Assembly: GCA_002685655.1 (NCBI GenBank)
Contig: NYXM01000076.1
Location: 1 to 26,722, forward strand
DNA: 26,722 nt
Origin: Planctomycetaceae bacterium
Lineage (GTDB): Bacteria; Planctomycetota; Planctomycetia; Pirellulales; Pirellulaceae
Reading direction: 5' to 3'
Under the pieces are notes generated by a model. The model did no database searches. It saw only the letters and a program-made list of their open reading frames with translations, and was not told the origin of the DNA. Made by a program: the position numbers and the translations under genes. The number at the start of each line of letters is the position of its first letter. Within the stretch, counting starts at the first letter, position 1. This document shows, piece after piece, positions 3,245 to 26,657 of the stretch.

Positions 3245-3286
3245 ATGCGCCAGTCGGCTAAGGGTATGCGCCAGTCGGCTAAGGGT
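3245..3286. repeat. Perfect 21-bp tandem duplication at the end of the NamZ-type gene
   Basis: The 21-base unit ATGCGCCAGTCGGCTAAGGGT occurs twice back to back (3245-3265 and 3266-3286) with no mismatch. On the minus strand each unit contains TACCCTTAG, which encodes the final Tyr-Pro and the stop codon of the NamZ-type gene, so the gene end exists in duplicate. The first in-frame stop (3279-3281) is the one used. The lack of divergence between units suggests a recent slippage or duplication event. Confidence 0.9.
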
Positions 3287-4464
3287 ACAGAAGACAACCC
3301 GCGACACGATTTCGCCACACGTTCGCATCGAAGTCAATGAGCGCGGACACGTGATCGGCGTCCTGAAGTCCACCGGATTCGATCTGATCACGCAGACGAT
3401 CACTGCCAAACAGAATGTCGATCGGCATCTTCTCCGTTTCGTATTCGTACGGAGGTGGCAACCAAGCCAGCTGGTTCGGCCAGAGTCGGCCAACACACGC
3501 CAACAGAGCGACGGTCGTGAAATGTGAGGGCGTCCAGCACGTGAAGTGAGACGCCGCCACAATCTTGGTCCTGCCATTTGTCGAACGTGGGTCGGAAGCG
3601 CGTCGGCACGCATCGGACCGCGGGCAATGCCATTTCTGACATTGCATCGGCCAGTCGAAAAGGATCGATGAACGGTGCTCCAGCAACCTCGAACGGTCGA
3701 GTCGTGCCACGTCCTTCGGAGAGATTGGTTCCTTCCAGCAACACCTGACCCGGGTAGACCAATGTCGATTCAAACCGGGGCAGATTCGGAGAAGGCGGCA
3801 GCCAGGCGCGTCCGGCAGCTGGCCACAATCGTTGACGGTCCCAGCCTCGCACGCTAACGACGTCGACGTCGGCGCCGATTGTCAGTTCCTGATTCACAAA
3901 TCGCGTGAGCTCGCCCAAGCTCAGACCGTGACGCATTGGAATCGTGACGCGTCCAACGAATGTCTCCCAACCGGACTCGAGCAGCGGTCCTTCCGAGAGC
4001 CCACCAAGCGGATTTGGCCGGTCCAGCACCACCAACGGTATCTCCGCCTCTGCACACGCTTCAAGACAGATCGAAATCGTCCAGGCAAACGTGTAGACGC
4101 GCGTTCCCACATCCTGCAGATCGACCACCAGACAATCCAAACCTTGCAACCACTCCGACAATGGCCGACGCGTTTCGCTGTACAGGCTGTAGATGGGAAG
4201 GCCCAGCGGCGGGTAAACGGCGTGCGGCGATTCGATCATGTTCGCCTGTTGTTCGCCCCACAGACCATGTTGAGGTGAGAAAAGGGCGACCAACTGACGG
4301 GGAAACCGCTCTGCGAGGACATCGCTGGAGAAGCGGAAATCAGAATCGACCGACGCCAGGTTCATCAATAACCCGAACTTGCCGTCTCGCATCGCAGCGG
4401 GCGGTTCATCCAGACAGTGTTCCAGGCCGAACTGAATCGGATCAGTGGATGTGGTCATCGACAT
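3279..4464 (-). pseudogene. Stand-alone NamZ-type (DUF1343, GH171-like) gene with an internal frameshift
   Basis: This gene belongs to the DUF1343 family, whose characterised members are exo-beta-N-acetylmuramidases (NamZ). From ATG 4464 (alternative 4458) the reading frame shows YSLYSETRRP, DLQDVGTRVYTF and VVLDRPNPLGG, then SPNLPRFESTLVYPG and GTNLSEGRGTTRPFEVAGAP. It runs in frame until about LDALTF (near 3520) and then drifts into unrelated residues with a stop at 3400. The expected C-terminus (LWPNQLAW, PPYEYETEKMPIDILFGSD, final CLLYP) continues one base over and ends at 3279. Compared with the neighbouring fusion protein, the stretch between the two parts is 11 bases short, which gives exactly this shift. 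No signal peptide is visible, unlike the fusion. The family SPEHG motif reads SPQHG (Gln65). It follows the fusion gene by 62 bases. It is either a decaying paralogue or affected by a sequence error. Confidence 0.82.
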
Positions 4465-4526
4465 CGTTGGGCGTCCGCGATTCCTTCGTGGTCCGACAGA
4501 TGTTCTCCGTTTTCAGCACAGCCTCG

Positions 4527-6932
4527 CTAGGGGTAGATCAGAAAACGGGCTCGGCGATCGAGAAACTTCCGCAGTTCGACTTGATATCCTGCTTCGATTT
4601 CACGTCGTGATTGCAACGTCAGCACACCATCCAAAGTACGGGCGTTGCTGAGCAATCTCGCATACGCATCGGCTTTCCATGTGTCCGGATAGAGTCGCCG
4701 AAGTTGTAGCGCGATCTCAAGGCCTGTCGGCAGCGGCCGAAACTGTTTTCGATCGACAACGATCGTATTGACGCCACCGCACACCTCGTCGGCGAACTTG
4801 CTGGCATCGGGTGTAAAGCGAATTGGTACAAAGCGAACGCCGGGCAACTCGGCTCGGTTGAGTTCCCTGGCCAATTCCTGGCCGTCGATCCACGGTGCCC
4901 CAACCACCTCGAACGGCGTGTCCGTCCCGCGACCAACCGAGAGATTTGTCGTCTCCAGGAGCCCGATGCCCGGGTAGAGCACTGCTTCGTTCAGGCTTCG
5001 CATATTCGGCGAAGGGTTGATCCAAGTGAGGCCCGTGGCGTCAAAAAAATCGCTCCGCTCCCAGCCTTCGACGGGAACCACGTGCAAGTCCAAGCCAAGT
5101 TGAAGTTCTTCGTTGAACATCCGGGCGAGTTCACCGACCGTCATCCCGTGGCGGACTGCAATGGTGTGCCAACCAACGAACGATTCGCGACCGTGATCCA
5201 GAACGGGGCCAGCCACATCGACGCCGTTGATCGGGTTGGGTCGGTCCAGCACGACAAATTTCACGTCATGCTCGGCCGCCGCCTTCATCGCCTCGCCCAT
5301 AGTGGAGACATACGTATAGAACCGCGCTCCGATGTCTTGAATGTCAAATACCAACGTGTCAACGCCGGCCAGCATCTCGGCCGTCGGCCGTCGGGTCGCG
5401 CCGTAGAGGCTATGGACCGTGAGACCCGTTGTCTTGTCGTTCACGTCGTCAACAATGCGTTGGTCGAGGGTTCCCAAAAAGCCATGTTCCGGGCTGAACA
5501 GCGCCGCCAGATCCACCTGCGGAGCAGCGTGCAGAACCTGAACCGTACTGGTGTGATTGCGATCCAGACTGGTGTGATTTGCAATCAGGCCGACGCGCCC
5601 CTTCAACGGCTTGAACCCATCACGTTGTAAGACATCAATGCCGGACAGAACCTTCGTCTGGACGCGCTTGACATCGCCTGGTTTGGCACTGGCTGCTTTA
5701 TCATTTGCTCCGCCGCGCGTCTCCGGCAGGTCCACCTGCGCCGGCAAGCGAATGGCACCCGCTGCGATCGTGCCAATCCGACCGGCCAGATGATTCACCG
5801 AACCTCTGCCATCAGGATGAAGTCGGTTGCTGAGGAAGATGACGAAAAGATCTAGATCGGGATCAATCCACAGCGTGGTTCCCGTAAACCCGCCATGACC
5901 GAAGGCCCGCGGCGAAAACTGCTCGCCTCGATTCGACGAATACCCTGACTGCTTATCCCAACCAAGTCCGCGCAGCCCGCTCGATACCGAGTACGGCCGT
6001 GTCATCATCTCGACCGTGTGAGGGCCCAAGATCGTCTTGCCGCCGTACGATCCGCGGCCGAGCATCATTTGCGCGTACACAGCTAGATCACTGGCTGTGG
6101 AAAACAAACCGGCGTGGCCGGCAACGCCGGCGAGCCGATAGGCGCGAGGGTCATGTACCTCGCCGCGCATCCAGCGCCCTTCGCGCTGTTCAGTCGGTGC
6201 GGCACGCGCCCGCAGATCTTCGCGAGGCAAGTAGCCCGTCTCCATCATCTGCAACGGGCCGAATAGATTCGCCTGTGTGAATTCGTGAATCGTTTTTCCT
6301 GTTTTGCGCCGCACCAGTTCGGCCAGCACGATGTAACCAACATCGGTGTAAACGAATTTAGTGCCGGGTTCCGCAACCAGTGGCAAGGCGAAGATCTTCT
6401 CCATCGCAACTGCCGGGCCGTCGCTGTAGTCGGCCAGACCGTTGTCCGGGATCAATCCACCTTGGTGCAACAGCAGTTCGCGCACGGTAACTTCGGCTTT
6501 GCCGTTCTGGCCGAATTCTGGAATGTGCTTCGCCACGGTGTCGCGCAATCTTATTTGACCACGTTCGATCAACTGCATGATGCTCGTTGCCGTTGCCACC
6601 GGCTTGGTAATCGACGCCATGTCGAAGACCGTATCGACGGTCATCCGTTCCTTTTCTGGTTCGAGTTGCCGAAACCCGTAGGCACGACGAAATACGACGC
6701 GTCCTCTTCGACCGATGCAGACGACACAGCCCGGCATGTTCTTCTGAGCCAACCCTTGGGAGACAACCTGGTCAATGCGATCCAAGTGGCCCGCGTCCAT
6801 TTCCGCGTCGCGGGGCGAGACGACCGGCAGACCAGTTTCGGAGCGGGCCGTCGTCGGGGCAAACAACATGCCGATCAATAGCAAAGTGAACAGCCGGGGA
6901 CTGTGCTCTAACGAACGAACGAAGTATGACAT
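4527..6932 (-). CDS. Exported serine hydrolase (beta-lactamase/AmiE-like) fused to NamZ-type exo-N-acetylmuramidase (DUF1343)
   Basis: This 801-residue protein has two enzymes in one chain. Residues 1-30 resemble a Sec signal peptide (hydrophobic core LFTLLLIGMLFAP). Residues about 40-395 are a class C beta-lactamase-type serine hydrolase with the S107-ITK-110 nucleophile/lysine pair, YTD at 195-197 in place of Tyr-x-Asn, and HGG at 346-348. Residues about 428-801 are DUF1343/NamZ, with FSPEHG at 479-484, SLYGATRRP, DIQDIGARFYTY, VLDRPNPINGVDVAGP and SPNMRSLNEAVLYPG. In Bacillus subtilis the amidase AmiE (YbbE) and the exo-muramidase NamZ (YbbC) are separate products of one MurNAc recovery operon; here they appear joined. 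By inference the protein removes peptide and then releases MurNAc outside the cytoplasm. AAAGGA lies eight bases upstream of the ATG. The symporter gene is 25 bases upstream on the same strand. Confidence 0.9.
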   Translation of the reverse strand: MSYFVRSLEHSPRLFTLLLIGMLFAPTTARSETGLPVVSPRDAEMDAGHLDRIDQVVSQGLAQKNMPGCVVCIGRRGRVVFRRAYGFRQLEPEKERMTVDTVFDMASITKPVATATSIMQLIERGQIRLRDTVAKHIPEFGQNGKAEVTVRELLLHQGGLIPDNGLADYSDGPAVAMEKIFALPLVAEPGTKFVYTDVGYIVLAELVRRKTGKTIHEFTQANLFGPLQMMETGYLPREDLRARAAPTEQREGRWMRGEVHDPRAYRLAGVAGHAGLFSTASDLAVYAQMMLGRGSYGGKTILGPHTVEMMTRPYSVSSGLRGLGWDKQSGYSSNRGEQFSPRAFGHGGFTGTTLWIDPDLDLFVIFLSNRLHPDGRGSVNHLAGRIGTIAAGAIRLPAQVDLPETRGGANDKAASAKPGDVKRVQTKVLSGIDVLQRDGFKPLKGRVGLIANHTSLDRNHTSTVQVLHAAPQVDLAALFSPEHGFLGTLDQRIVDDVNDKTTGLTVHSLYGATRRPTAEMLAGVDTLVFDIQDIGARFYTYVSTMGEAMKAAAEHDVKFVVLDRPNPINGVDVAGPVLDHGRESFVGWHTIAVRHGMTVGELARMFNEELQLGLDLHVVPVEGWERSDFFDATGLTWINPSPNMRSLNEAVLYPGIGLLETTNLSVGRGTDTPFEVVGAPWIDGQELARELNRAELPGVRFVPIRFTPDASKFADEVCGGVNTIVVDRKQFRPLPTGLEIALQLRRLYPDTWKADAYARLLSNARTLDGVLTLQSRREIEAGYQVELRKFLDRRARFLIYP

Positions 6933-6957
6933 TGCATTGGTCCTTTGACTTTCCTAA

Positions 6958-8511
6958 CTAGTTCTCATGTTGTGACGACTCTTGATTGCCAGGAACCACG
7001 TAGCTGGCCAGCACGCCGCCACCAAACGTCATTCCGCTCCCGATCACAGGAAGCCAGGGCCAGGCAACATTCCAACCAAACTCCGGCCCTACAATGAAAA
7101 CGACCAGCGGCGAAGCGAATTTGACGAACAGCAGGCCAGTCAATCCTACCATCAATCCGACCAACGCCGCGCGCTGATCAACGCGTCGGGTGCAAACCCC
7201 CAACAGAAACAGGCCTAACAGCAGCCCCGCTGAAAATCCCGCGATCGCCAACGCTTCGCCAACCACGCTGCGAGACACCCGCACGGCCAGCAGCGCGATC
7301 GCAATTTGAATGACGCCGAATAGGACCGTCAATCCGCGACTCCAATTCAGCAAGTGGCGTTCGCGGCTCCCGTCGCCGTCGTGATGTTTGAGAAAATCAT
7401 GCACGACCGCCGACGCCGACGAGTTTAACGAACTGGACAACGTCGACATGGCGGCGGCAAAGATGGCAGCCAGAAGCAAGCCGACTAAGCCAACATTGCG
7501 AGGCAATTCATGCACGACAAACGTCGCCAAGGCTTCATCATTTCGATTGATCACCACATTCGGCTGGACTTCTTCGTAGAAACAAGCGAGTCCCACTCCC
7601 AGTATCAAAAACAACGCGAACTGCAACATCACGACGAAGCCGCTGAAGAGGAGAGCGGTTCCAGCCCCGCGTTCGCTCCGCGCGGCCAGGTAGCGTTGCA
7701 CCATCATCTGGTCGGTGCCATGCGTGCCCAGTGTGAGAAACGCTCCGCCCACCAAACCGGCCCAAAACGTATATGGATCGTCCCAGGGAAACCCGTCGGG
7801 TGTTTGCCAAGGCCACGCGAAATCAAACACACGGAACTTATCCTGGGCCAAACCGAACTCAAGAAACTGGCTCCACCCGCCCGGGATTCGGTCCAACAGC
7901 ACCAATGCCACCACAATTCCTCCCGCCATGTAGACCAACAGTTGAATGCAATCATTCCAGACGACGGACTTCATGCCACCCATCATCGTATACACGATCG
8001 TGGCGACACCGATGACGAACACACAGCCTGGTAACGTCCAGCCGGTCGCTACGTGGAGCGCCATCGCGGTCAGGAACAGTCGCAGACCATCACCCAAATT
8101 GCGCGTCACCAGGAACACGAGTGAGGCCGTACGTTGAGTGGCGCCTCCGAATCGTTGGTGAAGGACCTCGTAGGCCGTACTCAATTGGCCGCGAAAGAAC
8201 TGCGGCAGCAAGAGAAACACGATGATGGTACGACCGACAACGTACCCCAGCGACAGTTGCAGGAAACGCATGTCGCCTGTTTCCTTCGCGAAGGCGATGC
8301 CCGGTACGCTCAGGAATGTCGCCGTGCTGGTCTCCGTCGCCACGATGGAACCCAAAATTGCCCACCATGGCAAATTTCGGCCACCGAGAAGGTAACCGTC
8401 CAAGTTCCGTTGCCCCCATCCGACCCACAACCCCAGGGCAACCGTCGCTGCCAGATAGGCAAGGAGGACGACAACGTCAAGGCCTCCGATTTGGCTGTAG
8501 TCAAGTTGCAT
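6958..8511 (-). CDS. Sodium:solute symporter (SSS family), candidate MurNAc importer
   Basis: This 517-residue polytopic inner-membrane protein carries SSS-family marks. These are YLLGGRNLPWW early on, IVATETSTATFLSVPG in the second helix region, YTMMGGMKSVVWND, and the long signature LGTHGTDQMMVQRYLAAR. About a dozen hydrophobic segments are visible. SSS transporters use the sodium gradient to import sugars, amino sugars, sialic acid or other solutes. The substrate cannot be read from the sequence. However, it is the first gene of a leftward unit with the hydrolase-NamZ fusion 25 bases downstream, and it faces murQ and a BadF-type kinase. In Tannerella forsythia an SSS protein (MurT) sits with a MurNAc kinase and MurQ and imports MurNAc, so that role is proposed here by context. 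The start is ATG 8511; the ribosome binding site is weak. Confidence 0.9.
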   Translation of the reverse strand: MQLDYSQIGGLDVVVLLAYLAATVALGLWVGWGQRNLDGYLLGGRNLPWWAILGSIVATETSTATFLSVPGIAFAKETGDMRFLQLSLGYVVGRTIIVFLLLPQFFRGQLSTAYEVLHQRFGGATQRTASLVFLVTRNLGDGLRLFLTAMALHVATGWTLPGCVFVIGVATIVYTMMGGMKSVVWNDCIQLLVYMAGGIVVALVLLDRIPGGWSQFLEFGLAQDKFRVFDFAWPWQTPDGFPWDDPYTFWAGLVGGAFLTLGTHGTDQMMVQRYLAARSERGAGTALLFSGFVVMLQFALFLILGVGLACFYEEVQPNVVINRNDEALATFVVHELPRNVGLVGLLLAAIFAAAMSTLSSSLNSSASAVVHDFLKHHDGDGSRERHLLNWSRGLTVLFGVIQIAIALLAVRVSRSVVGEALAIAGFSAGLLLGLFLLGVCTRRVDQRAALVGLMVGLTGLLFVKFASPLVVFIVGPEFGWNVAWPWLPVIGSGMTFGGGVLASYVVPGNQESSQHEN

Positions 8512-8528
8512 GAGTGCCTGACGAAGTA

Positions 8529-8540
8529 TTGCTCGAGCAA
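8529..8540. promoter_or_regulatory. Palindrome in the divergent symporter/murQ intergenic region, possible operator
   Basis: TTGCTCGAGCAA is a perfect 12-bp palindrome in the only gap (about 110 bases) between the divergent symporter and murQ genes. It lies 18 bases before the symporter ATG and 82 bases before murQ. No convincing -35/-10 pair could be matched to it, so assignment as a shared operator is inference from symmetry and position alone. Confidence 0.35.
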
Positions 8541-8621
8541 GAACAAAATGACCGCTGGCGCCACAATCATTTCCGATCCTTGCTTAGAATAGAGATGGGA
8601 TCATACCAGAGACACGCATCG

Positions 8622-9515
8622 ATGCTCAACAAACTTACAACCGAATCTCGGAATCCTGCCTCCGAGAAGCTTGATCAGTTGTCCGCGCTCGAGATCGTTC
8701 AACTGATGAACGCTGAAGACGCGCAAGTCAGCGTTGCAGTGAGCAAGGAAGCGGCAGCGATCGCGCGGGCAGTCGAGATGATCGCCGATCGCCTGCGCGG
8801 CGGTGGTCGCCTGATCTACATCGGCGCGGGAACTTCGGGTCGCCTGGGTGTACTGGACGCCAGCGAATGCCCGCCTACGTTTAACTCGCCACCCGAATTG
8901 GTCGTCGGCCTGATCGCGGGTGGCCCCGCCGCACTCACACGTTCGATTGAAGGCGCCGAAGACCACCCTGAATACGCAGTAACCGATCTGACAGAGGTGG
9001 GTTTGTCTGAATCTGATGTTCTTGTCGGCATCGCCACCAGCGGCCGAACACCGTATGTGATCGGCGGTCTGCAATATGCCCGTCAAGTTGGCGCGGCGAC
9101 GATCGGATTTAGTTGCAACGACGAGTCCGCGCTGGCGGACTTCTGCGACGTGGTCATCGCGCCGGTCGTCGGTCCCGAAGTTGTTAGCGGGTCAACGCGT
9201 TTGAAGGCCGGCACGGCCACCAAGATGGTTCTGAATATGCTCACGACCGGCGCAATGGTGTTGTTGGGAAAAACGTATGGCAACCTGATGGTTGATTTAC
9301 GAGCCAGCAACACGAAACTGACTGACCGGACACGTCGAATTGTCGCCATGTTAACCGGGATATCCGAAGACGCGGCAGAGGTGAAACTTCAAGCATCCGA
9401 CGGGGAACTCAAAGTGGCCGTGGTGTCGCAAGAGCTGGGGATCTCGCCTGACCACGCCAGACGGCGGTTGGCGTGCAGCGGTGGTCATTTGCGACGAGCG
9501 CTCGAGAATTCTTGA
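8622..9515 (+). CDS. murQ: N-acetylmuramic acid 6-phosphate etherase
   Basis: MurQ cleaves the lactyl ether of MurNAc-6-phosphate in the cytoplasm to give GlcNAc-6-phosphate and D-lactate. The 297-residue product aligns end to end with known MurQ proteins (E. coli 298). It has LTTESRNPASEKLDQL at the N-terminus, GGGRLIYIGAGTSGRLGVLD and ASECPPT at 62-86, LIAGG, and EGAEDHPE. Further on are ATSGRTPYVIGGL, GSTRLKAGTATKMVLNML and YGNLMVDLRASN. The residues matching E. coli catalytic Glu83 and Glu114 are Glu82 and Glu113. ATG 8622 is chosen because MLNKLTTESRN matches the N-terminus of other MurQ proteins; ATG 8595 is in frame upstream. It is divergent from the symporter and 81 bases ahead of the kinase gene. 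Confidence 0.95.
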   Translation: MLNKLTTESRNPASEKLDQLSALEIVQLMNAEDAQVSVAVSKEAAAIARAVEMIADRLRGGGRLIYIGAGTSGRLGVLDASECPPTFNSPPELVVGLIAGGPAALTRSIEGAEDHPEYAVTDLTEVGLSESDVLVGIATSGRTPYVIGGLQYARQVGAATIGFSCNDESALADFCDVVIAPVVGPEVVSGSTRLKAGTATKMVLNMLTTGAMVLLGKTYGNLMVDLRASNTKLTDRTRRIVAMLTGISEDAAEVKLQASDGELKVAVVSQELGISPDHARRRLACSGGHLRRALENS

Positions 9516-9596
9516 CGTTGTGCTACCCCTTTGATTCGGTGGCCTGGTGAGCGTACCCCTTGGCCTGACTTCACGGAGTGCATTGGCAGAAATGTG

Positions 9597-10538
9597 ATGA
9601 ACTTAGACGACTTGGTTCTTGGCGTTGATGGTGGCGGTACCAAGACCGTGGCTTGGCTAAGTAGCGTCAGCGGCGCTGCTGTGGAGACTATCGGCCGAGG
9701 CGCGGCTGGACCGTCTAACCCAGGCGTTGTGGGCATGTCACAGGCGATCGCAACGTTGGCACAAGCGATCGACGCCGCGTTCGACAATGCTGGGCTTGGA
9801 CCTGGTTTGCTCCCTGCAGCTTGCTTGGCCGTTTCAGGCACGGAGCGAACCGCGCATCGCGATGCGATGCTGCAATGGGCGGCCGATCGATCCTTGGCGA
9901 GCAACGTTCGATTGGTAGGCGATGCTGAAGCTGTACTTGCCGGCGGGTCGCCCGACGGTTGGGGGGTCGCCCTGATCGCCGGCACGGGCTCGTTCGCCTT
10001 CGGTCGCGATCTCCAAGGTCTGACCATCCGGGTCGGGGGATGGGGGTACTTGTTTGGCGACGAGGGGAGCGGTCACGCGCTGGGCGCTGCGGGACTGCGG
10101 GCCGCAACTCACCACGCGGACGGACGGGGGCCGGCGACAACCTTGTTGCCACGCCTCTTGAGCAGGTTCGACCTGACCGAACCGCGCGAGCTCGTAACGT
10201 TTTTCTACGGCCGACAACCCGCCCGGCGCGCTGCACTGGCAGAATTGGCACCCCTGGTTACGGTGGCCGCCGAAGAGGGTGACGACGTGGCCACGCAGAT
10301 TGCCAGCGATGCCGCCGCGGATCTAGCTCGTTTAGTGACTGCCGCGTGCAGCCAACTGAATTTGTCACCGCGCAGATTTCCGCTGGCAATCGCTGGAGGT
10401 GTGCTTTGCAACAGCTCGCTGATGCGCAAATGCCTGGAGGCGTCGTTGGCTGGTCAAGATTATCTCACTGAGGAGATCACGCTGGTCGAACAGCCGGTTC
10501 AAGGTGCTGTGGAACTAGCACGCCGCGCCATCTCGTAA
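9597..10538 (+). CDS. murK: BadF/BadG/BcrA/BcrD-family sugar kinase, probable MurNAc/GlcNAc kinase
   Basis: This is an ASKHA-fold cytoplasmic kinase of about 313 residues in the family that includes N-acetylglucosamine kinase and the MurK kinases of Clostridium acetobutylicum and Tannerella forsythia. The phosphate-1 loop DGGGTKT is at residues 11-17. NPGVVG, LAVSGTER, a VGDAEAVLAGG stretch, ALIAGTGSFAFG and the typical GWGYLFGDEGSG follow. A C-terminal AIAGGVLCNSSLM block resembles the adenosine motif. Placed directly after murQ, it would supply MurNAc-6-phosphate for that enzyme. This assignment rests on family plus neighbourhood; GlcNAc kinase is the alternative. ATG 9597 is preferred because the DUxGGGTKT-type core normally starts a few residues from the N-terminus. 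It converges on the next gene with a 20-base gap. Confidence 0.85.
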   Translation: MNLDDLVLGVDGGGTKTVAWLSSVSGAAVETIGRGAAGPSNPGVVGMSQAIATLAQAIDAAFDNAGLGPGLLPAACLAVSGTERTAHRDAMLQWAADRSLASNVRLVGDAEAVLAGGSPDGWGVALIAGTGSFAFGRDLQGLTIRVGGWGYLFGDEGSGHALGAAGLRAATHHADGRGPATTLLPRLLSRFDLTEPRELVTFFYGRQPARRAALAELAPLVTVAAEEGDDVATQIASDAAADLARLVTAACSQLNLSPRRFPLAIAGGVLCNSSLMRKCLEASLAGQDYLTEEITLVEQPVQGAVELARRAIS

Positions 10539-15762: not shown

Positions 15763-15796
15763 GACCACTTGTGATCACCAGGGGTAAGGTCTCGTG

Positions 15797-16843
15797 ATGA
15801 ATGACTTCGATGTTAACGGTCCTCGCGTCCTCAAGCGACTCGAGGCATTTCCACGTTGCCGACTTGCGCATCTGCCGACACCTCTGGAGTCGATGGAGAG
15901 ACTATCTCAGCATTTGGACGGGGTCTCGCTCTTCGTCAAGCGAGACGACTGTACGGGATTGGGTTTCGGCGGCAACAAGGTTCGTCAGTTGGAGTTCTAT
16001 TTTGGCCAGGCGCTGAAGGAAGAAGCCGATACGGTACTCATTACCGGGGCGATCCAATCCAATTTCGTCCGCGCGGCCGCGGCCGCGGCTCGACGGTTAG
16101 GGATGGAGTGCCATATACAGTTGGAGGAACGTGTACCCGGTGTCGATGCTCTGCACCGATCTTCCGGCAACGTGTTACTGAGCCGGATTCTCGGCGCGAA
16201 GCTGCATTCCTATCCAGCTGGAGAAGACGAGGATGGGGCCGACGCCAATCTAAGTGAGATTGCCGAGCAACTTCGTCAAGGCGGTTCGAGACCATATATC
16301 ATCCCGCTTGGTGCCGGGCACGATCCTTTGGGCGCATTGGGGTATATCGATGCTGCCGTTGAACTGTTGACTCAACTAGACCGACAGTCACTTCGAATAG
16401 ACCATCTTGTGGTCACATCGGGAAGTGGTGCCACCCATGCCGGAATCCTGTTTGGGTTACGTTCTTTGGGCAGCCAGATTGGCGTAACTGGTGTCTGCCC
16501 TCGGCGTGACGCTCAATCTCAGAGACGACGAATTGCCGGACACACCAAGAAACTAACGAGTATGCTTGGGCTCGATCCGGGCATCGAACCAGACGATATT
16601 CGCCTAACGGATGTCTCCTTGGCACCGGGCTACGGTCAACTCAATGACGAGACCGTCAAGGCTCTTCAATTGACAGCCCAATGCGAAGGGTTGTTTCTCG
16701 ATCCCGTCTATACTGCCAAAACGATGGCGGGGTTGTTTCATCTGGTCGACCAGCAAGAAATCTCTGGCAATGTGGTGTTTGTGCATACCGGTGGCCAACC
16801 GGCCCTATTTGGGTACGGTGATGCGTTGATCGGCCAGGAGTGA
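15797..16843 (+). CDS. PLP-dependent D-cysteine desulfhydrase / ACC deaminase family enzyme
   Basis: A 348-residue fold-type II pyridoxal-phosphate enzyme. Characterised members of this group break down D-cysteine or 1-aminocyclopropane-1-carboxylate to ammonia and a keto acid. The N-terminus RCRLAHLPTPLESMERLS and the block FVKRDDCTGLGFGGNKVRQLEF are hallmark features, with Lys61 as the predicted Schiff-base lysine. GAIQSNFVRAAAAAARRLG follows; the family usually has QSNH there, so Phe replaces the His. VTSGSGATHAGILFGL matches the phosphate-binding loop, and the C-terminal DPVYTAKTMAGL and HTGGQPALFGY are also typical. ATG 15797 is preferred over the adjacent GTG 15794 because AAGGT is six bases upstream. 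Repeat copy B begins four bases after the stop codon. The exact substrate is uncertain. Confidence 0.88.
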   Translation: MNDFDVNGPRVLKRLEAFPRCRLAHLPTPLESMERLSQHLDGVSLFVKRDDCTGLGFGGNKVRQLEFYFGQALKEEADTVLITGAIQSNFVRAAAAAARRLGMECHIQLEERVPGVDALHRSSGNVLLSRILGAKLHSYPAGEDEDGADANLSEIAEQLRQGGSRPYIIPLGAGHDPLGALGYIDAAVELLTQLDRQSLRIDHLVVTSGSGATHAGILFGLRSLGSQIGVTGVCPRRDAQSQRRRIAGHTKKLTSMLGLDPGIEPDDIRLTDVSLAPGYGQLNDETVKALQLTAQCEGLFLDPVYTAKTMAGLFHLVDQQEISGNVVFVHTGGQPALFGYGDALIGQE

Positions 16844-17230: not shown

Positions 17231-17299
17231 GTATAACATGGGTACTCAGACGATACCGACGAACTGTTGCCCGCGCAACCCCTTGTGAGGCCACGCACG

Positions 17300-18565
17300 A
17301 TGAATTCCGATCTCGCCGCTTTCCTCGCTGAACACGCAAGTCTCACTCGACGTTTCTTCCTCCGTTGCGGCGCGGCCGGTGTGGCCGCGATGAGCGCGCT
17401 GCCGCTGCTTGCCCGAGGTGGCGAACGTAGCCCCGCGTTGCAGAAGGTCGTCGACGGCCTCGAAACCTGGCTGACGAAACAAGACGACTTCCGAGACGTC
17501 TCGCGAGGCACTCCAAAACCGTATTCCCACGACGAGGCCAAACTCAAGGAAGTCGGCATGACGCGCGACACCTGGAAACTCGAAGTCGTCGACGATCCGG
17601 ATAACAGCGCCCGGCTACGCAGCCCGCTGACGAAGGAGAAGAACACGGCCTTCACGTTCGAGGACCTGATGCAACTAGCCGGGAAGCACGCGGTTCGATT
17701 TCCCAAAGTGATGACCTGCCTCAACATAGGTCGCCCGCTGGGCAATGGGATCTGGGAAGGTGTGCCGTTGCGCGAAGTGCTCTGGCTGACTCAGCCCAGC
17801 CCGGCTCTGCGGCGCGTGTTCTATTACGGGTATCACAACGACGACCCGAAACAGATGTTTCGTAGTTCGATGCCGGTTAATCGTGTGCTCGAAGACCTGT
17901 ACGACCTGCCTCCAGTTATTCTCTGCTACAAACTCAACGGCCATTGGCTGACGGGCGAACGAGGTGCTCCCGTTCGGATCGTCGTTCCGGAGGCGTACGG
18001 TTTCAAGAGTATCAAATGGCTGTCGCATGTCGTTCTGTCGAACAAGTGGCAATCCAACGACACCTATGGCGAGAAGAGCAACGACGTCGACAGTCCGTTG
18101 AAGACCTTTTGCGATCCAATCTCGGTTCCCGACACGGTCAAACCCGATCAACCCATTGCCTTGACCGGTTATGCCCAGGTTGGCATCGCGGGTCTGAAGA
18201 AGGTCCAGGTCTGGATTCATAACGACGACGAGGCACTGCCCGCCGACGACAGTTATTTCATGACTGCACCTTGGCGTGATGCCGAGATTATCCCACCATC
18301 GAAGAACTGGGGCGGAGACATTGCAAACAATCGCATCCCCTCCCCGACACACGGGTTCGACCCGCAGACGGGGCAGCCGAAGAGCTGGCCGATGCGGCTG
18401 ACGAGAGCCCACTGGGCAGCATTGCTGCCCGGTTTGCCCGCTGGCCAGTACACGCTGCGGTGTCGCACGATCGATGAGAAAGGTATTGCACAGCCGATGC
18501 CGCGACCTTTCCGTAAGTCGGGTCGGGCAGCGATCGGCGAGGTGGGGCTGACTGTCAAAGCATGA
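17300..18565 (+). CDS. Tat-exported sulfite-oxidase-like molybdopterin oxidoreductase
   Basis: A 421-residue protein of the oxidoreductase molybdopterin-binding (sulfite oxidase/SoxC/MsrP-like) superfamily. The N-terminus carries a twin-arginine signal, TRRFFLRCGAAG at about residues 16-27 followed by a hydrophobic alanine/leucine run, so the folded cofactor-loaded enzyme should be exported. The Mo-ligand cysteine candidate is Cys140 in VMTCLNIGRPLGNGIWEGVPLREVL, which parallels the sulfite oxidase CxGNGR...W.GVPL block. Later landmarks are GHWLTGERGAPVRIVVPEAYGFKSIKWL and a C-terminal dimerisation-type domain (TGYAQVGIAGLKKVQVW). ATG 17300 is preferred with GTGAGG nine bases upstream. It precedes the cytochrome-type cassette genes on the same strand, but about 230 bases with a hairpin repeat separate them. 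The true substrate may not be sulfite. Confidence 0.85.
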   Translation: MNSDLAAFLAEHASLTRRFFLRCGAAGVAAMSALPLLARGGERSPALQKVVDGLETWLTKQDDFRDVSRGTPKPYSHDEAKLKEVGMTRDTWKLEVVDDPDNSARLRSPLTKEKNTAFTFEDLMQLAGKHAVRFPKVMTCLNIGRPLGNGIWEGVPLREVLWLTQPSPALRRVFYYGYHNDDPKQMFRSSMPVNRVLEDLYDLPPVILCYKLNGHWLTGERGAPVRIVVPEAYGFKSIKWLSHVVLSNKWQSNDTYGEKSNDVDSPLKTFCDPISVPDTVKPDQPIALTGYAQVGIAGLKKVQVWIHNDDEALPADDSYFMTAPWRDAEIIPPSKNWGGDIANNRIPSPTHGFDPQTGQPKSWPMRLTRAHWAALLPGLPAGQYTLRCRTIDEKGIAQPMPRPFRKSGRAAIGEVGLTVKA

Positions 18566-18604
18566 TTGCTTGCCGATCTCAGTTAGCAGCCGGTTGATTC
18601 TCGC

Positions 18605-18643
18605 GTAGGCCGGTTACAAGGAGCGTCAGCGACGCAGTTCCGA
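18605..18643 (+). repeat. Hairpin repeat, GTAGGCCGG-type, solo copy
   Basis: This 39-base element starts GTAGGCCGGTTACAAGGAGCG and ends GACGCAGTTCCGAC. It has a short perfect stem GCGTC-AGC-GACGC in the middle and partial outer complementarity (CGGTTAC / GTTCCG). It starts 40 bases after the stop codon of the sulfite-oxidase-like gene and in the same orientation. It resembles the copies at 13691 and at the edge of repeats A and B. Confidence 0.65.
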
Positions 18644-18678
18644 CGATGGAAACCGCTCCATGCGTGCCAGCGTTTGAC

Positions 18679-18707
18679 TTGCAAACTCAGCGTTGATCGC
18701 CGATAAT
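18679..18707 (+). promoter_or_regulatory. Sigma-70-like promoter upstream of the DUF1549/DUF1553 cytochrome gene
   Basis: TTGCAA (18679-18684) and GATAAT (18702-18707) are separated by 17 bases, with four and five of six consensus matches. The -10 box ends 86 bases before ATG 18794. This is the best pair in the 228-base gap; the assignment is by eye only. Confidence 0.4.
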
Positions 18708-18793
18708 TCTCAGAAGGACGCTTAACGGCGCAAAGTCGTCGCATCCCCACCTCACGTCCTTCCTCAAGACTCCTTTCTACACGACGAGTCCCT

Positions 18794-21364
18794 ATGCGTG
18801 GTTCGCTCCTCTTGATTCTGTTTGGTTTCACTTCCTCTCTGCTATCGCCAGTCGTGACACTGGTTCAGGCGAATCAGCCCGCGGCCGGCGACCTTGAGTT
18901 TTTTGAGAAGAAGATCCGGCCGGTGTTAGTCGAGCACTGCTACGAGTGCCATTCGGCTGAAGGCGGAGAAATGGAAGGCGGCTTGTTGCTCGACACGCGG
19001 ACTGCGATTCGGAAGGGGGGAGAGAACGGACCAGCAGTCGTGCCTGGCGAGCCGCGGAAGAGCCTGCTGTTGGACGCCCTGGAATTCAAGAAGACAGAAA
19101 TGCCTCCCGATGGCAAGTTGCCGCCTGAGGTGATCGCGGATTTTCGCAATTGGATCAAGCGTGGCGCGGAGGACTCGCGCGAAGGTGGCATGACGTTGGA
19201 ACTAGCCGGCCCGGTCGCCATTGCCGCGGATGAGCTCTGGTCGCTCCAGCCGATTCAGGATCCCCAGCCACCGGCTGTCGCTCAGGCCGACTGGCCGCGC
19301 GACGACATCGACCACTTCGTTCTGGCACTTCACGAACAGAAAGGACTGAAGGTGGTCGGTGAGGCGTCCCCGCTTACACTACTGCGGCGCATCTATTTCG
19401 ATCTGATTGGCTTACCGCCCTCGCCCCAGGCGATTCGCGATTTTGAACAAGATCATTCGCAACAGGCGCTCGGCGAATTGGTCGACCGGCTGTTGGAATC
19501 GCCGCAGTTTGGTGAACGTTGGGGACGGTATTGGCTGGACATCGCCCGCTACGCGGAGTCGGTCGGTGGTAGTCGGGATGTATTGATGCCGCATGCTTGG
19601 CGCTATCGCAACTATGTGATCGATGCAATCAACGCCGATATGCCCTTCGATCAGTTCCTCCGCGAGCAGATTGCCGGTGACTTGCTGCCCGCTCAAAACG
19701 CTACGGACCACGATCGTTTGCAAATCGCGACCGGTTTCTTGGCGGTAGGCACGAAGTCGCTCAACGGCGGCAACTTGCAGATGGATATCGTTGACGATCA
19801 GATTGATGTGACGGGAAAAGCCGTTCTCGGATTGGCAGTCGGTTGTGCACGCTGTCACGACCACAAGTTCGATCCCATTCCGACGGCCGATTATTATGCG
19901 TTGGCGGGTATCTTCCGCAGCACGCAAACGCTGTATGGCAGTGCCAAGAAGCAGGGAGCTGACAAAGCTGTCAATGAACTGTTGGCATTGGGCGAGAACG
20001 TTGAGCAGCTGATCGAGAGACACAAAGACCATCAGACACAGGTCGCCAAGATCAACAAGAAAACGGGCACCGTCAACAAGACCGTCCAGGCACTGCAGAA
20101 GAAGCTCCCCAAGGACTGGCGGAACCGCAGCAAGAAACTGAGGGAGGCAACGCAAACGAAGGCCAATGATGCGCTGCCTGACCAGGAGAAGCCAAATTCA
20201 GCTGATTCGCAGATCAACGAGCAAGACAGCAAGTTCCTGGACGAAGTGACGGCTCTGGAAGCAGCGCAGCGCGAACTTCAACAGTTGAAAACGGAGCTGA
20301 AGGAACTGAACAAGAGCAAGCCCGTCGACGACATCGAATACGCCATCGGTGTGCGAGAGGCTAAGCGCATTGACGACACTAAGATCCATATTCGCGGCGA
20401 CCGAGCCCAACTGGGCGAAACCGTTTCCCGTGGTTTTCTTTCCTGTGTCGATATCGAAGTCGCGAAGATTGACGAGCAACAGAGCGGGCGGTTGCAGTTC
20501 GCAGATTGGCTCACGCATGTCGATAACCCGCTCACGGCACGGGTTGCCGTCAATCGGATTTGGCAGCACCTCTTCGGCCGAGGTATCGTCGCCACGGTAG
20601 ACAACTTTGGAGCCAACGGGATGAAGCCAACGCACCCCGAATTGCTCGACTACCTGGCGACGCAGTTTCGGGAAGAAAAGTGGTCGCTAAAAAAACTGGT
20701 CCGACGGCTTGTTCTTTCCCGCACGTATCAACTGGCCGCCGACAACCACGCGGAGAATTTCGCCAAGGATCCCGGCAACGAATACTATTGGCGAATGAGC
20801 CGCCGCCGATTGGATGCGGAGGCCTTGCGCGACTCGATGTTGGCGGCCGGCGGCAGGCTGGATCTGGAAAGACCCGTTGCCTCCCCCGTGGCGGAGGTCG
20901 GCCATGGCGAGGTTGGTCGAGGGATTAACACCGCCCCGCTCGAGGCGCCGTTCCCGCACCGCAGCGTGTACTTGCCGATCTTGCGGGGCATCATACCCGA
21001 GCTACTGGGAACGTTTGACTTTCCCGAGCCCAGTAATCCTCAGGGACAGAGAATGGCGACGAACGTGCCGGCACAATCGTTGTTCCTCATGAATAGCCCC
21101 TTTGTTGTCGAACAGGCGGAAAGTCTGGCCGACAGCGTTTTGAAAGTCGAGTCCGAGCCTTCTTCACGGGTCGAACTGGCTTTTCTGCGGTGTTTGAACC
21201 GATTCCCCAAGGATGACGAGGTGGCCCAGTCGCTCGCCTTTTTGAAGCGTTTGGAACAACAAAGAGACAATGGACAGACGGATGTCCAAGATCGCGAACT
21301 TGCCAATTGGACTACGTTTTGCCACGCATTATTCAATACTTCGGAATCCCGTTATCTTGACTAG
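18794..21364 (+). CDS. Planctomycete cytochrome-type surface protein (PSCyt1-DUF1549-DUF1553)
   Basis: An 856-residue exported protein of the planctomycete-enriched family built from a C-type haem-like N-terminal module, DUF1549 and DUF1553 (PSD1). A Sec signal ([22 protein letters not shown]) is followed by CYECH at residues 49-53, the haem-binding CxxCH of PSCyt1. EMPPDGKLP sits at the end of that module. DUF1549 follows with [42 protein letters not shown] and a second CxxCH ([12 protein letters not shown], Cys351/Cys354). A lysine/glutamine-rich, coiled-coil-like insert spans about residues 390-515. DUF1553 then shows [29 protein letters not shown] and the final LFNTSE. Function is unproven; electron transfer or polymer processing at the cell surface is often suggested. 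The stop overlaps or abuts the DUF1501 partner gene. Confidence 0.93.
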
Positions 21365-21372
21365 TGAGCGCT

Positions 21373-22746
21373 ATGAACAATCCACTGCGAATCTCCCGCC
21401 GCCAAATGCTTACCTCAAGTGCCTGCGGCATCGGATCCCTGGCACTTGCGGGTCTATGTCAAGAAGCGCGTGCCGATTATGACAGCCCCTTGGCGCCCAA
21501 GACGCCTCACTTCGAGCCTCGCGCCAAACGTATCATCTTCTTGCATATGCGTGGCGCGCCGGCGCACATGGACACGTTCGACTATAAGCCCCAACTCAAC
21601 GAATTGGGAGGCAAGGTCGGCAAGTCAAAGAACCGCAAGTTGGTCGCGTCGCCGTGGAGTTGGAAGCAGCGAGGAGAAAGCGGGCTGTGGGTATCCGACT
21701 TGTTACCGAACATCGCCAAACATGCCGACGAACTCTGCGTGTTATCTGGTATGCACACCGATATCGGCAATCACACGCCCGCGATGCTTCATCTGCACAC
21801 GGGGAACTTCGTATTCGCCCGACCTTCGATGGGAGCTTGGATCCTGTATGGCCTGGGAACGGAGAATCAGAATCTACCGGGTTTTATCACCATGTCGCCG
21901 CCAGTGATCAACGGCGGTGCGTGGAACTACGGAACTGCGTTTTTGCCGGCCGTCTATCAGGGTACGGCCATCGGGGACATCAAGACGCCCATCGCCGACG
22001 CCAAGGTTGGCAACATCAAGAACCCCTATCTCAGTCCACGACAACAGCGCGCGCAGCTCGATTTTGCGCAGTCGTTGAATCGAGAGTTCGCTGATCGAGA
22101 CCAGAACGACTCGCAGCTAGAGGGAGTCATTGAATCGGCGGAACTGGCCTTTCGTATGCAAGCCGATATGCCGCACGCGATGGACCTTTCGCAGGAAACT
22201 GCCGGCACACTGGAGATGTACGGCATTGGCGAGGGTAAAAAGAGCGACAATTTCGGGCGCCAGTGTCTGTTGGCCCGACGATTTGCCGAAGCCGGAGTTC
22301 GTTACATTGAACTCTGTGATGAGTTCTGGGATCAGCATACCAAGTTGAAATCGGGCCACGGTGCACGCGCTGCAGCTACCGAGCTTCCCATCGCCGGTTT
22401 ACTGGCCGACCTCAAAAGGCGGGGAATGCTGGAAGACACCATTGTCTTGTGGGGTGGCGAATTCGGTCGCACGCCCGATAGCAGCAAGAAAGACGGTCGC
22501 GATCACAACATTAACGGATTCACGATGTTCCTCGCTGGCGGCGGAGTGAAAGGTGGATTCAAGTTCGGAGAAACCGACGAACTCGGTTACGCGGCCGTCA
22601 CAGACCGTATTCACACCCACGACCTGCACGCCACACTGCTGCACATCCTGGGACTCGATCACACGAAGCTCACCAGCCGATACGCCGGTCGCGATTTCCG
22701 TTTGACGGACGTTTACGGGCGAGTTGTCGACGAAGTCTTGGCATAA
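21373..22746 (+). CDS. DUF1501 protein, Tat-exported partner of the DUF1553 cytochrome
   Basis: A 457-residue DUF1501 protein, a sulfatase/alkaline-phosphatase-like fold family common in planctomycetes. A twin-arginine signal is visible at the start (RISRRQMLTSSACGIGSLALAGL). Typical sequence includes AKRIIFLHMRGAPAHMDTFDYKP, CVLSGMHTDIGNHTPAML, FGRQCLLARRFAEAGVRYIEL, VLWGGEFGRTPDS, GRDHNINGFTMFLAGGGVKGG and HTHDLHATLLHILGLDH. His/Asp/Glu residues in these motifs probably bind metals. ATG 21373 lies eight bases after the DUF1553 stop; a GTG at 21364 overlaps that stop and would add three residues. The tight spacing supports one transcript and joint action. The biochemical reaction is unknown. 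Confidence 0.93.
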   Translation: MNNPLRISRRQMLTSSACGIGSLALAGLCQEARADYDSPLAPKTPHFEPRAKRIIFLHMRGAPAHMDTFDYKPQLNELGGKVGKSKNRKLVASPWSWKQRGESGLWVSDLLPNIAKHADELCVLSGMHTDIGNHTPAMLHLHTGNFVFARPSMGAWILYGLGTENQNLPGFITMSPPVINGGAWNYGTAFLPAVYQGTAIGDIKTPIADAKVGNIKNPYLSPRQQRAQLDFAQSLNREFADRDQNDSQLEGVIESAELAFRMQADMPHAMDLSQETAGTLEMYGIGEGKKSDNFGRQCLLARRFAEAGVRYIELCDEFWDQHTKLKSGHGARAAATELPIAGLLADLKRRGMLEDTIVLWGGEFGRTPDSSKKDGRDHNINGFTMFLAGGGVKGGFKFGETDELGYAAVTDRIHTHDLHATLLHILGLDHTKLTSRYAGRDFRLTDVYGRVVDEVLA

Positions 22747-22977
22747 TTGCGGAATTGGTGACCTGCCATTCCTGTTGACAAACGACGAAGAGTGCCTTTT
22801 CTATCAGCGGCGTAGCGCTATGTCGCGATTCTGCTGCAGTGAGATGCAGTGCGACCATCGAGATTTCACGAGAGGCTATTGACGATTTATAGCCCGGGTT
22901 GAAGCGTTTGACTACAATTTGGCGTTGTCTGCTGCGCGTTTTGGACGTATCGCATCGAGCGGCTCGAGGTGTTGCAA

Positions 22978-25635: not shown

Positions 25636-25658
25636 TAAGTCAATTCGGAGAAGATCTC

Positions 25659-26657
25659 ATGAAACGACCAAGAATAGACCGCCGCATGGTGCTCAAAGGA
25701 CTTGGTAGCGTTACCATCGGGTTGCCACTCCTGGAAGAGATGTTGGTCACCACCGCCACGGCGGCGTTGCAAGAAACGGTTCCTGTGCGCGCGTTCAATG
25801 TCTTCTTCGGACTCGGGATTCCCGCCCCTTTGCAGACGGAAGGTTTTAACGATGTCCTCGAACCGCTCAAACCACTCAGCGACAAGCTGTTGGTCATGCG
25901 GAACGTCGACCAGGTTCGTTGTGACGAATCCGGGATCAACGCTCACTTCGACGGAGCATCCGGTGCGTTTACTGCCGAACCGCCCGATGGTGAAGCTAAA
26001 GCCGGTGGTCCTTCGATCGACCAGGTCGTCCGCAAGACCTACCATCCTGATGGGTTGCCAAAGGGCATGGTTCCCACACTGATCGGAGGTACGTTCTTTC
26101 GGCGTAGTCGCGTCAGCCGGTACGTCCACAGCTATAACCCCGACGGCACGGTTGCCTCGACGATGCAAGAGAAGCCGCGCGATCTGTTCGACCGCGTGTT
26201 TGGTATGATTGGCGTAGCCGGTCGCGACACCGACGTTCGGAGCCGGCGACTGCGTCGCAGTGTGCTCGATTCCGTAGTCGATCAGTATAAGTTCTACACC
26301 GGCACAAATTCGCCGCTCGGTGCTGCTTCCAAGGCCCGCGTTGCCGATCACCTCGACCGGATCCGCGAGTTCGAACAGCGTGCCTACGAGATGAAAGCGC
26401 GCCCCAAAGGCGCACCCTCGCTTCCACGTCGATCGCAAATTGCCCATGGTGGACTGGCAGATCCCGGTGGCCAGGGCATCGACATGAAGCTGGACGACCT
26501 CACGACCGAATGGCGTTTGATGGCCGACCTCTACGCGCTGGCCATTCAACTGGATCGAGTCCGTTTTGGTTCGTTGACGTTCCTCGCGGCCGGCGAACGC
26601 CTTCGCATTAAGGGCGACTACAAGTACCTGAACTTTCGCAGATATTCGTCTGCTTAA
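25659..26657 (+). CDS. DUF1552 protein, apparently truncated at the C-terminus
   Basis: DUF1552 proteins are the usual partner of DUF1592-type cytochromes in planctomycetes. The N-terminus has a twin-arginine-like signal (RRMVLKGLGSVTIGLPLLEEML). Family blocks follow: KPLSDKLLVMRNVD, INAHFDGASGAFTAEPP, GGPSIDQVVRK, a long helical SVVDQYKFYTG stretch, DHLDRIREFEQRAYE and the near-C-terminal RVRFGSLTFLAAGERLRIKGDYKY. The expected remainder, about 100 residues with a conserved Ser-His/Trp-His block, is absent. After KGDYKY the frame reads nine unrelated residues and stops. No other frame restores the family sequence before the window ends, so this is not a simple frameshift. It is 332 residues against a usual length well above 400. 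ATG 25659 is preferred with GGAG eight bases upstream. Confidence 0.85.
   Translation: MKRPRIDRRMVLKGLGSVTIGLPLLEEMLVTTATAALQETVPVRAFNVFFGLGIPAPLQTEGFNDVLEPLKPLSDKLLVMRNVDQVRCDESGINAHFDGASGAFTAEPPDGEAKAGGPSIDQVVRKTYHPDGLPKGMVPTLIGGTFFRRSRVSRYVHSYNPDGTVASTMQEKPRDLFDRVFGMIGVAGRDTDVRSRRLRRSVLDSVVDQYKFYTGTNSPLGAASKARVADHLDRIREFEQRAYEMKARPKGAPSLPRRSQIAHGGLADPGGQGIDMKLDDLTTEWRLMADLYALAIQLDRVRFGSLTFLAAGERLRIKGDYKYLNFRRYSSA

Follow-up and report, generated by a model that had tools for sequence, protein, structure and literature searches.

A divergent planctomycete locus predicted to salvage N-acetylmuramic acid without a phosphotransferase system

Can a small gene cluster in a planctomycete recover N-acetylmuramic acid (MurNAc) from peptidoglycan, and if so, whose wall does it use? 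The question is raised by a contig of a Planctomycetaceae bacterium (GCA_002685655.1, contig NYXM01000076.1), of which a stretch of 26,722 nucleotides, referred to here as the window, was analyzed. In it, murQ, encoding MurNAc-6-phosphate etherase, and a sugar kinase gene run in one direction, while genes for a sodium:solute symporter (SSS), a serine hydrolase-NamZ fusion, and a second NamZ-type protein (namZ2) run in the other. We consider it likely that this locus serves a salvage route free of the phosphotransferase system (PTS), in which the MurNAc of peptidoglycan would be converted to N-acetylglucosamine (GlcNAc)-6-phosphate, the wall being most likely foreign. MurNAc salvage by the locus is well supported, with the individual enzyme activities predicted from sequence.

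Genes of the locus and the route they would form

All five genes named in an original prediction made from this DNA were found in their places by Pfam and NCBIfam matches (Table 1). The short intergenic region common to both directions was also retained, with the start codons moved, probably to 8595 or 8622 for MurQ and to 9597 for the kinase; since MurQ would start at one of these codons and not at the first possible one, the shared stretch is about 83 to 110 bases long. The description of the locus as complete-looking did not hold, as no NagZ was seen in the window and the second NamZ is broken. The predicted lack of a glycoside hydrolase family 3 (GH3) gene was borne out among the window open reading frames (ORFs) scanned with Pfam, and the NagZ of the complete Bacillus subtilis-type pathway was thus absent from them, as were MurR and any sialic acid gene.

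MurQ scored 389.1 bits against TIGR00274, above the equivalog cut-off of 302 bits. The kinase is of the BadF type (PF01869, 121.9 bits). Its only NCBIfam match was NagK_SO3507 (NF046058), at 114.4 bits and below the cut-off of 370 bits, and its best match in both sequence and fold was MurK of Clostridium acetobutylicum (PDB 8zo3, 29% identity), a MurNAc kinase being thus its nearest characterized relative with a solved structure. The two proteins share the motif GGWG..GDEGSG; in the window kinase, a G precedes the catalytic D and GGWG lies at the pocket, the GGWG alone being as in human NAGK and C. acetobutylicum MurK. Excerpts of PMC10465942 give T94 and S133-P134-L135 as the pocket of the Tannerella-type MurK, see nothing in human NAGK that conflicts with MurNAc, and state that C. 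acetobutylicum MurK also accepts GlcNAc. Phosphorylation of the Tannerella type had been predicted, but the closest relative is not Tannerella MurK; it is the C. acetobutylicum enzyme, a dual MurNAc/GlcNAc kinase. For the kinase alignment, 6 of 65 sequences were dropped (outside 250 to 420 residues) and the window kinase was added, some loci being present twice. MurQ and the kinase occupied a single open frame at 3 of 65 loci (3 of 59 with six duplicated loci counted once; L029:63-1970, L032, and L111), indicating that their fusion is occasional.

The symporter matched PF00474 (151 bits) and TIGR00813 (225 bits, above the cut-off of 184 bits). When it was aligned with the sialic acid carrier SiaT, its nearest solved relative, the residues of the Na2 (S356 T357) and Na3 (D187 S359 S360) sites were found to be kept. 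Of the eight SiaT contacts with N-acetylneuraminic acid (Neu5Ac), S60, T63, and F78 were kept and T58 was not, while R135, Q82, N247, and Q250, contacts given in an excerpt of PMC5931594, are G, S, T, and T in the symporter. Sialic acid transport was rejected on these pocket residues, five of the eight contacts not being kept. Across 66 aligned symporters (1 of 66 dropped at 380 residues or fewer, the window symporter added, some loci present twice), R137 and R144, one turn to each side of the SiaT arginine, were conserved in at least 97%, and the family profile was nearer to SSS anion carriers than to glucose carriers. These features would suit an acidic amino sugar but are no proof of MurNAc.

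The fusion has a hydrophobic, signal-peptide-like N terminus and scored 246.9 bits against PF00144, 284.7 bits against NamZ_N, and 150.9 bits against NamZ_C, the two NamZ domains being over their gathering scores. The identical three-domain set was present in all 120 relatives listed, and databases already name the fusion as a NamZ-domain protein. In an alignment of 14 sequences, S107/K110, Y195, and H346-G-G were invariant in the serine hydrolase half and SPEHG (480-484) in the NamZ half; we take these to be the catalytic motifs. The predicted fold (mean predicted local distance difference test score of 70.9 and predicted template modeling score of 0.52, with 14 sequences) was too weak and was not used. 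We propose that the NamZ domains cleave MurNAc off non-reducing ends. The best of 31 NCBIfam matches for the serine hydrolase half was PBP4B (YfeW, NF002968), at 178.9 bits and below the cut-off of 385 bits, and Escherichia coli YfeW was 30% identical to it over 398 aligned positions. Because of this likeness, the position of yfeW after murQ-murP in E. coli K-12, and the presence of amiE in the murQ cluster of B. subtilis, our best guess for this half is a MurNAc-peptide amidase. AmiE is a PF00144-type serine hydrolase. As a separate observation, relatives of the serine hydrolase half with 44 to 62% identity occur in 11 genomes (G037, G129, G018, G086, G089, G094, G113, G082, G117, G121, and G051) in which murQ is below the cut-off and no NamZ match was found among the scored candidates.

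The namZ2 product matched NamZ_N (233.4 bits) and NamZ_C (104.4 bits), both over the gathering scores, with NamZ_C shortened by a frameshift: the open frame 4464-3400 stops inside this domain, and the end of the domain is read in a different frame, which runs to 3279. Compared with an intact relative (P0241, 398 residues, 93% identical), about 11 bases are missing. A single-base sequencing slip was rejected as the cause, a loss of this size being atypical for such an error; recent decay, a strain variant, and mis-assembly cannot be told apart here. A strongly hydrophobic N terminus (Kyte-Doolittle hydropathy of at least 2.0 over 11 residues) was found in 1 of the 120 nearest namZ2 relatives versus 101 of 120 fusion relatives, and at a threshold of 1.6 in 17 versus 110 of 120. 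Because hydrophobic N termini are so rare among its relatives, the namZ2 lineage is judged by hydropathy to be leaderless and probably cytoplasmic. We know of no NamZ that acts in the cytoplasm.

Taken together, these genes would form the following route. Outside the inner membrane, the serine hydrolase half of the fusion would strip stem peptides from MurNAc, as AmiE does, and the NamZ half of the same chain would free MurNAc at the non-reducing end. The symporter would import MurNAc, perhaps also a disaccharide, together with Na+. The kinase would then produce MurNAc-6-phosphate, and GlcNAc-6-phosphate too where GlcNAc is present, and MurQ would remove the lactate to give GlcNAc-6-phosphate for amino-sugar metabolism. 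The leaderless second NamZ, where intact, would split imported MurNAc-GlcNAc in the cytoplasm.

Table 1. Positions of the locus features in the window
Feature	Position	Strand	Evidence
Second NamZ gene (namZ2), frameshifted copy	3279..4464	-	Pfam; intact relative P0241
Serine hydrolase-NamZ fusion, 801 aa, signal-peptide-like N terminus	4527..6932	-	PF00144 + PF07075 + PF20732
Serine hydrolase domain, YfeW/PBP4B-like (fusion residues 53-378), proposed MurNAc-peptide amidase	5799..6776	-	
Candidate exo-N-acetylmuramidase domain of the NamZ type (fusion residues 447-800)	4533..5594	-	
Sodium:solute symporter (SSS), proposed MurNAc importer	6958..8511	-	PF00474, TIGR00813
Divergent upstream region common to symporter and murQ	8512..8594	.	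Sequence; layout conserved
murQ, MurNAc-6-phosphate etherase, start 8595 or 8622	8595..9515	+	TIGR00274
Sugar kinase of the BadF family, putative MurNAc (and GlcNAc) 6-kinase	9597..10538	+	PF01869

Conservation of the neighborhood

A genome scan with the fusion returned at least 80 loci, 17 of which were set aside as acidobacterial (including L039, "Bacterium HR10"). Of the 63 that were left, sequence reached 5 kb or more upstream of the fusion in 31 and 1.5 kb downstream of it in 52. In the 31 loci, the genes found near the fusion were murQ (22 loci), the kinase gene (21), and the symporter gene (18); all three were present in 17, and every one of these 17 had the divergent layout. A namZ2-type gene followed the fusion in 12 of the 52 loci.

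The neighborhood was also read from murQ, in 118 genomes from the order of Adhaeretor (Pirellulales), 41 of which had murQ over the cut-off. NamZ was detected in 38 of the 41 murQ-positive versus 3 of the 77 murQ-negative genomes, with up to eight candidates per genome scored for NamZ and the fusion parts, so that absences are lower bounds; in 4 of 12 genome match lists, counts in the tail of weak matches are likewise "at least" values. The fusion lay at most 6 kb from murQ in 22 of the 41 genomes, the serine hydrolase alone in 6, and NamZ alone in 1, and 28 of these 29 neighbors were on the strand opposite murQ. Thirty of the 41 murQ loci were read over about 1.5 kb per side: the kinase adjoined murQ in 28, the symporter diverged in 23, and AnmK adjoined the kinase or murQ in 16. 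The AnmK that was scanned, at L060, scored over the NCBI cut-off. AnmK produces MurNAc-6-phosphate, and its position beside the locus, with the same product, thus fixes the pathway. A XylR/AraC-type regulator was present at five loci, together with AnmK (L013, L014, L017, L024, and L060). Across 27 loci, sequence distances agreed between MurQ, the kinase, the symporter, and the fusion (rho of 0.51 to 0.66 among the non-acidobacterial loci), for which shared descent alone suffices as an explanation. As the arrangement is found again in dozens of genomes, it is more than chance. The co-occurrence for which the original prediction had asked was therefore seen, the divergent cluster being conserved in related planctomycetes, and comparison with SiaT and NagK placed neither the symporter nor the kinase firmly among carriers or kinases of other substrates.

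In Acidobacteria, a GH3 gene directly preceded the fusion in 13 loci (L063, L065-L070, L072, L074-L076, L078, and L080). All 12 readable GH3 genes encoded KHFPGHGDTxxDSH, presumably the NagZ motif. The symporter preceded the GH3 gene in each of the nine loci reaching far enough, and in five of these nine the order was kinase-murQ-symporter-GH3-fusion on one strand. By its predicted gene content, the acidobacterial version is the fuller enzyme set, with a NagZ-type gene.

Wall-synthesis genes and the source of the peptidoglycan

Genes of wall synthesis were sought in 34 genomes (24 murQ-positive and 10 murQ-negative; 28 from the order sample and 6 via loci). MurA, MurC, MraY, and the transpeptidase domain of penicillin-binding proteins were each over the cut-off in the same four genomes, two without murQ over the cut-off (G006 and G015) and two murQ-positive (G056 and G126). 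None of the four was over the cut-off in the remaining 22 of the 24 murQ-positive genomes, among them the drafts holding the three best-matching loci (G001-G003) and the complete genome of Adhaeretor mobilis (G005), a member of the Pirellulales whose locus (L014) lies at about 1.866 to 1.875 Mb on the complete chromosome NZ_CP036263.1. The leftover MurA matches (34 to 92 bits, one per genome, with G013 alone having a further fragment) are probably AroA. MurA was found in 25 of the 118 genomes of the order at an expect value (E) of 1e-60 (24 over the cut-off) and in 222 of the 234 genomes of a phylum sample (218 over the cut-off), showing that the search detects the gene where it is present. 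The absence of wall genes agrees with Henriques et al. (2025), an excerpt of which reports loss of murA, murC, murD, murF, murG, murJ, and ftsW in Pirellulales, Isosphaerales, and Gemmatales (PMC12283558). An earlier review, in the part at hand, considers MraY likely in all genomes of the Planctomycetes-Verrucomicrobia-Chlamydiae superphylum (PMC5147048).

Since none of these genes is over the cut-off in most of the related murQ-positive genomes examined, other bacteria are the most likely source of the peptidoglycan used. Judged from related genomes and not from the source genome, foreign walls are probably the food of the relatives that lack wall genes, which narrows the earlier wording, "own or foreign peptidoglycan," toward the foreign side. 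In the phylum sample, murQ (E of 1e-60 or better) occurred in 127 of 222 MurA-positive versus 5 of 12 MurA-negative genomes; since it is present on both sides, the MurNAc route probably predates the loss of wall synthesis and was retained afterwards. Within the order, MurA was rarer in murQ-positive genomes (3 of 41 versus 22 of 77; Fisher test, 0.008), a comparison uncorrected for kinship on which we do not lean.

Several observations weigh against salvage of foreign MurNAc. An excerpt of Jeske et al. (2015) reports that Rhodopirellula baltica contains peptidoglycan and that every planctomycete analyzed there carries genes for making it (PMC4432640), murQ is common in genomes with MurA, and for 6 of the 34 genomes, including the ones with the three best-matching loci, neither order nor completeness is given. 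NagZ was over the cut-off in none of the 34 genomes, with weaker GH3 matches in eight (in five of these on the murQ contig, about 9 to 40 kb away), and NagA, matched in all 34, was over the cut-off in one. No fusion part lay inside 6 kb of murQ in 12 of the 41 murQ genomes, no partner lay near the fusion in 9 of the 31 loci with 5 kb upstream, and three murQ-negative genomes of the order have the fusion. What the symporter and the kinase act on is deduced from their sequences.

The observations on peptidoglycan and murQ are what would be expected if MurNAc shed from self-made peptidoglycan were recycled, through canonical or unknown enzymes, as could also happen in G056 and G126 with their full set of four genes. 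We hold this to be unlikely: the other 22 murQ-positive genomes, including that of A. mobilis, lack all four, the MurA model is positive in nearly all of the phylum sample, so that the method did not fail, and loss of these genes is already published. It is improbable that another amino sugar (GlcNAc, sialic acid, or one of the chitin type) is what the symporter and the kinase handle, with MurQ and NamZ as mere neighbors. The kinship to SiaT, the sole NCBIfam match of the kinase, and the acceptance of GlcNAc by C. acetobutylicum MurK could be so explained, but the NagK cut-off is far off, the SiaT pocket is largely not kept, the scanned window ORFs include no sialic acid gene, and the kinase is in frame with MurQ at three loci. 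That the fusion is chiefly a wall-lytic weapon or predation factor, with sugar recovery secondary, seems to us very improbable; it is secreted and widespread and occurs in the nine loci and three genomes just mentioned, but each of its halves is similar to salvage enzymes that act from chain ends, and nutrition would fit better with how tightly murQ and NamZ co-occur.

Salvage of MurNAc from foreign walls is thus the reading that we prefer. A wider proposition, which we regard as standing midway between likely and unlikely, is that much of the Pirellulales has abandoned the building of peptidoglycan and has kept and streamlined its recycling genes to feed on foreign walls, with a one-chain fusion, an Na+ symporter and a MurK-type kinase in place of the PTS, and a cytoplasmic leaderless NamZ acting on imported disaccharide.

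Related systems and other genes of the window

We take the ybbC of B. subtilis to be NamZ. According to an excerpt of PMC5061867, the cluster in that species is murQ-murR-murP-amiE-nagZ-ybbC, amiE being the gene for MurNAc-L-alanine amidase; MurQ, this amidase, NamZ, and stepwise extracellular digestion of muropeptides are the points of likeness. In the window, however, the amidase-like and NamZ parts are on one chain, a symporter and a kinase stand in for the PTS, and neither NagZ nor MurR is among the ORFs scanned. The Tannerella forsythia operon, given in excerpts of PMC5388701 and PMC7670621 as lytB-ampG-ybbC-murT-murK-murQ, with ybbC directly before murTKQ, is similar in that NamZ adjoins MurQ and the proteins for MurNAc transport and phosphorylation and no PTS is named there. 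It differs in that the operon genes listed include no serine hydrolase fusion and lie on one strand, whereas the window layout is divergent, has no AmpG that we could see, and includes a kinase nearer to the MurK of C. acetobutylicum, its best fold match, than to that of Tannerella. E. coli, with murR / murQ-murP-yfeW, likewise has MurQ alongside a YfeW/PBP4B-type serine hydrolase, but imports by a PTS and has neither NamZ nor a kinase in that stretch.

The proposal that the locus combines extracellular enzymes with a PTS-free route thus stands as to PTS-free salvage but not as to novelty, since NamZ-MurT-MurK-MurQ is known in Tannerella (an excerpt of PMC5388701). Two features set the locus apart from Tannerella: serine hydrolase and NamZ joined in one chain, and a second NamZ predicted to be leaderless. 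In open-licence PubMed Central, we found no paper on MurNAc salvage in Planctomycetes or in strains lacking wall genes, on the divergent locus, or on a leaderless NamZ; PMC10322874 and PMC11298437, in the parts at hand, treat community enzymes in general and not planctomycete MurNAc salvage. That Pirellulales have lost wall genes has been in print since 2025, and no paper in the same collection was found that joins this loss to MurNAc salvage. As the wall of Pirellulales is still argued over, the eating of MurNAc by cells without known wall genes offers a possible reason for MurNAc or diaminopimelic acid in or on them. A. mobilis, which has a species name and a fully sequenced genome, offers a direct test, and the fusion and the leaderless NamZ family are enzymes ready for assay. 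A part for Pirellulales in the turnover of bacterial necromass is also suggested.

Elsewhere in the window, an RseP-type site-2 protease of 736 residues with three PDZ_6 stretches is encoded at 528-2738. At 15794-16843 lies a pyridoxal phosphate enzyme closest to the D-cysteate sulfo-lyase CuyA (359 bits, cut-off of 450 bits), and beside it, at 17267-18565, a sulfite-oxidase-fold protein; the pair may point to sulfonate use. In the region 17267-26657, a gene for a protein with the molybdopterin oxidoreductase fold is followed by a run of planctomycete cytochrome c, DUF1501, DUF1552, and PSD-type genes.

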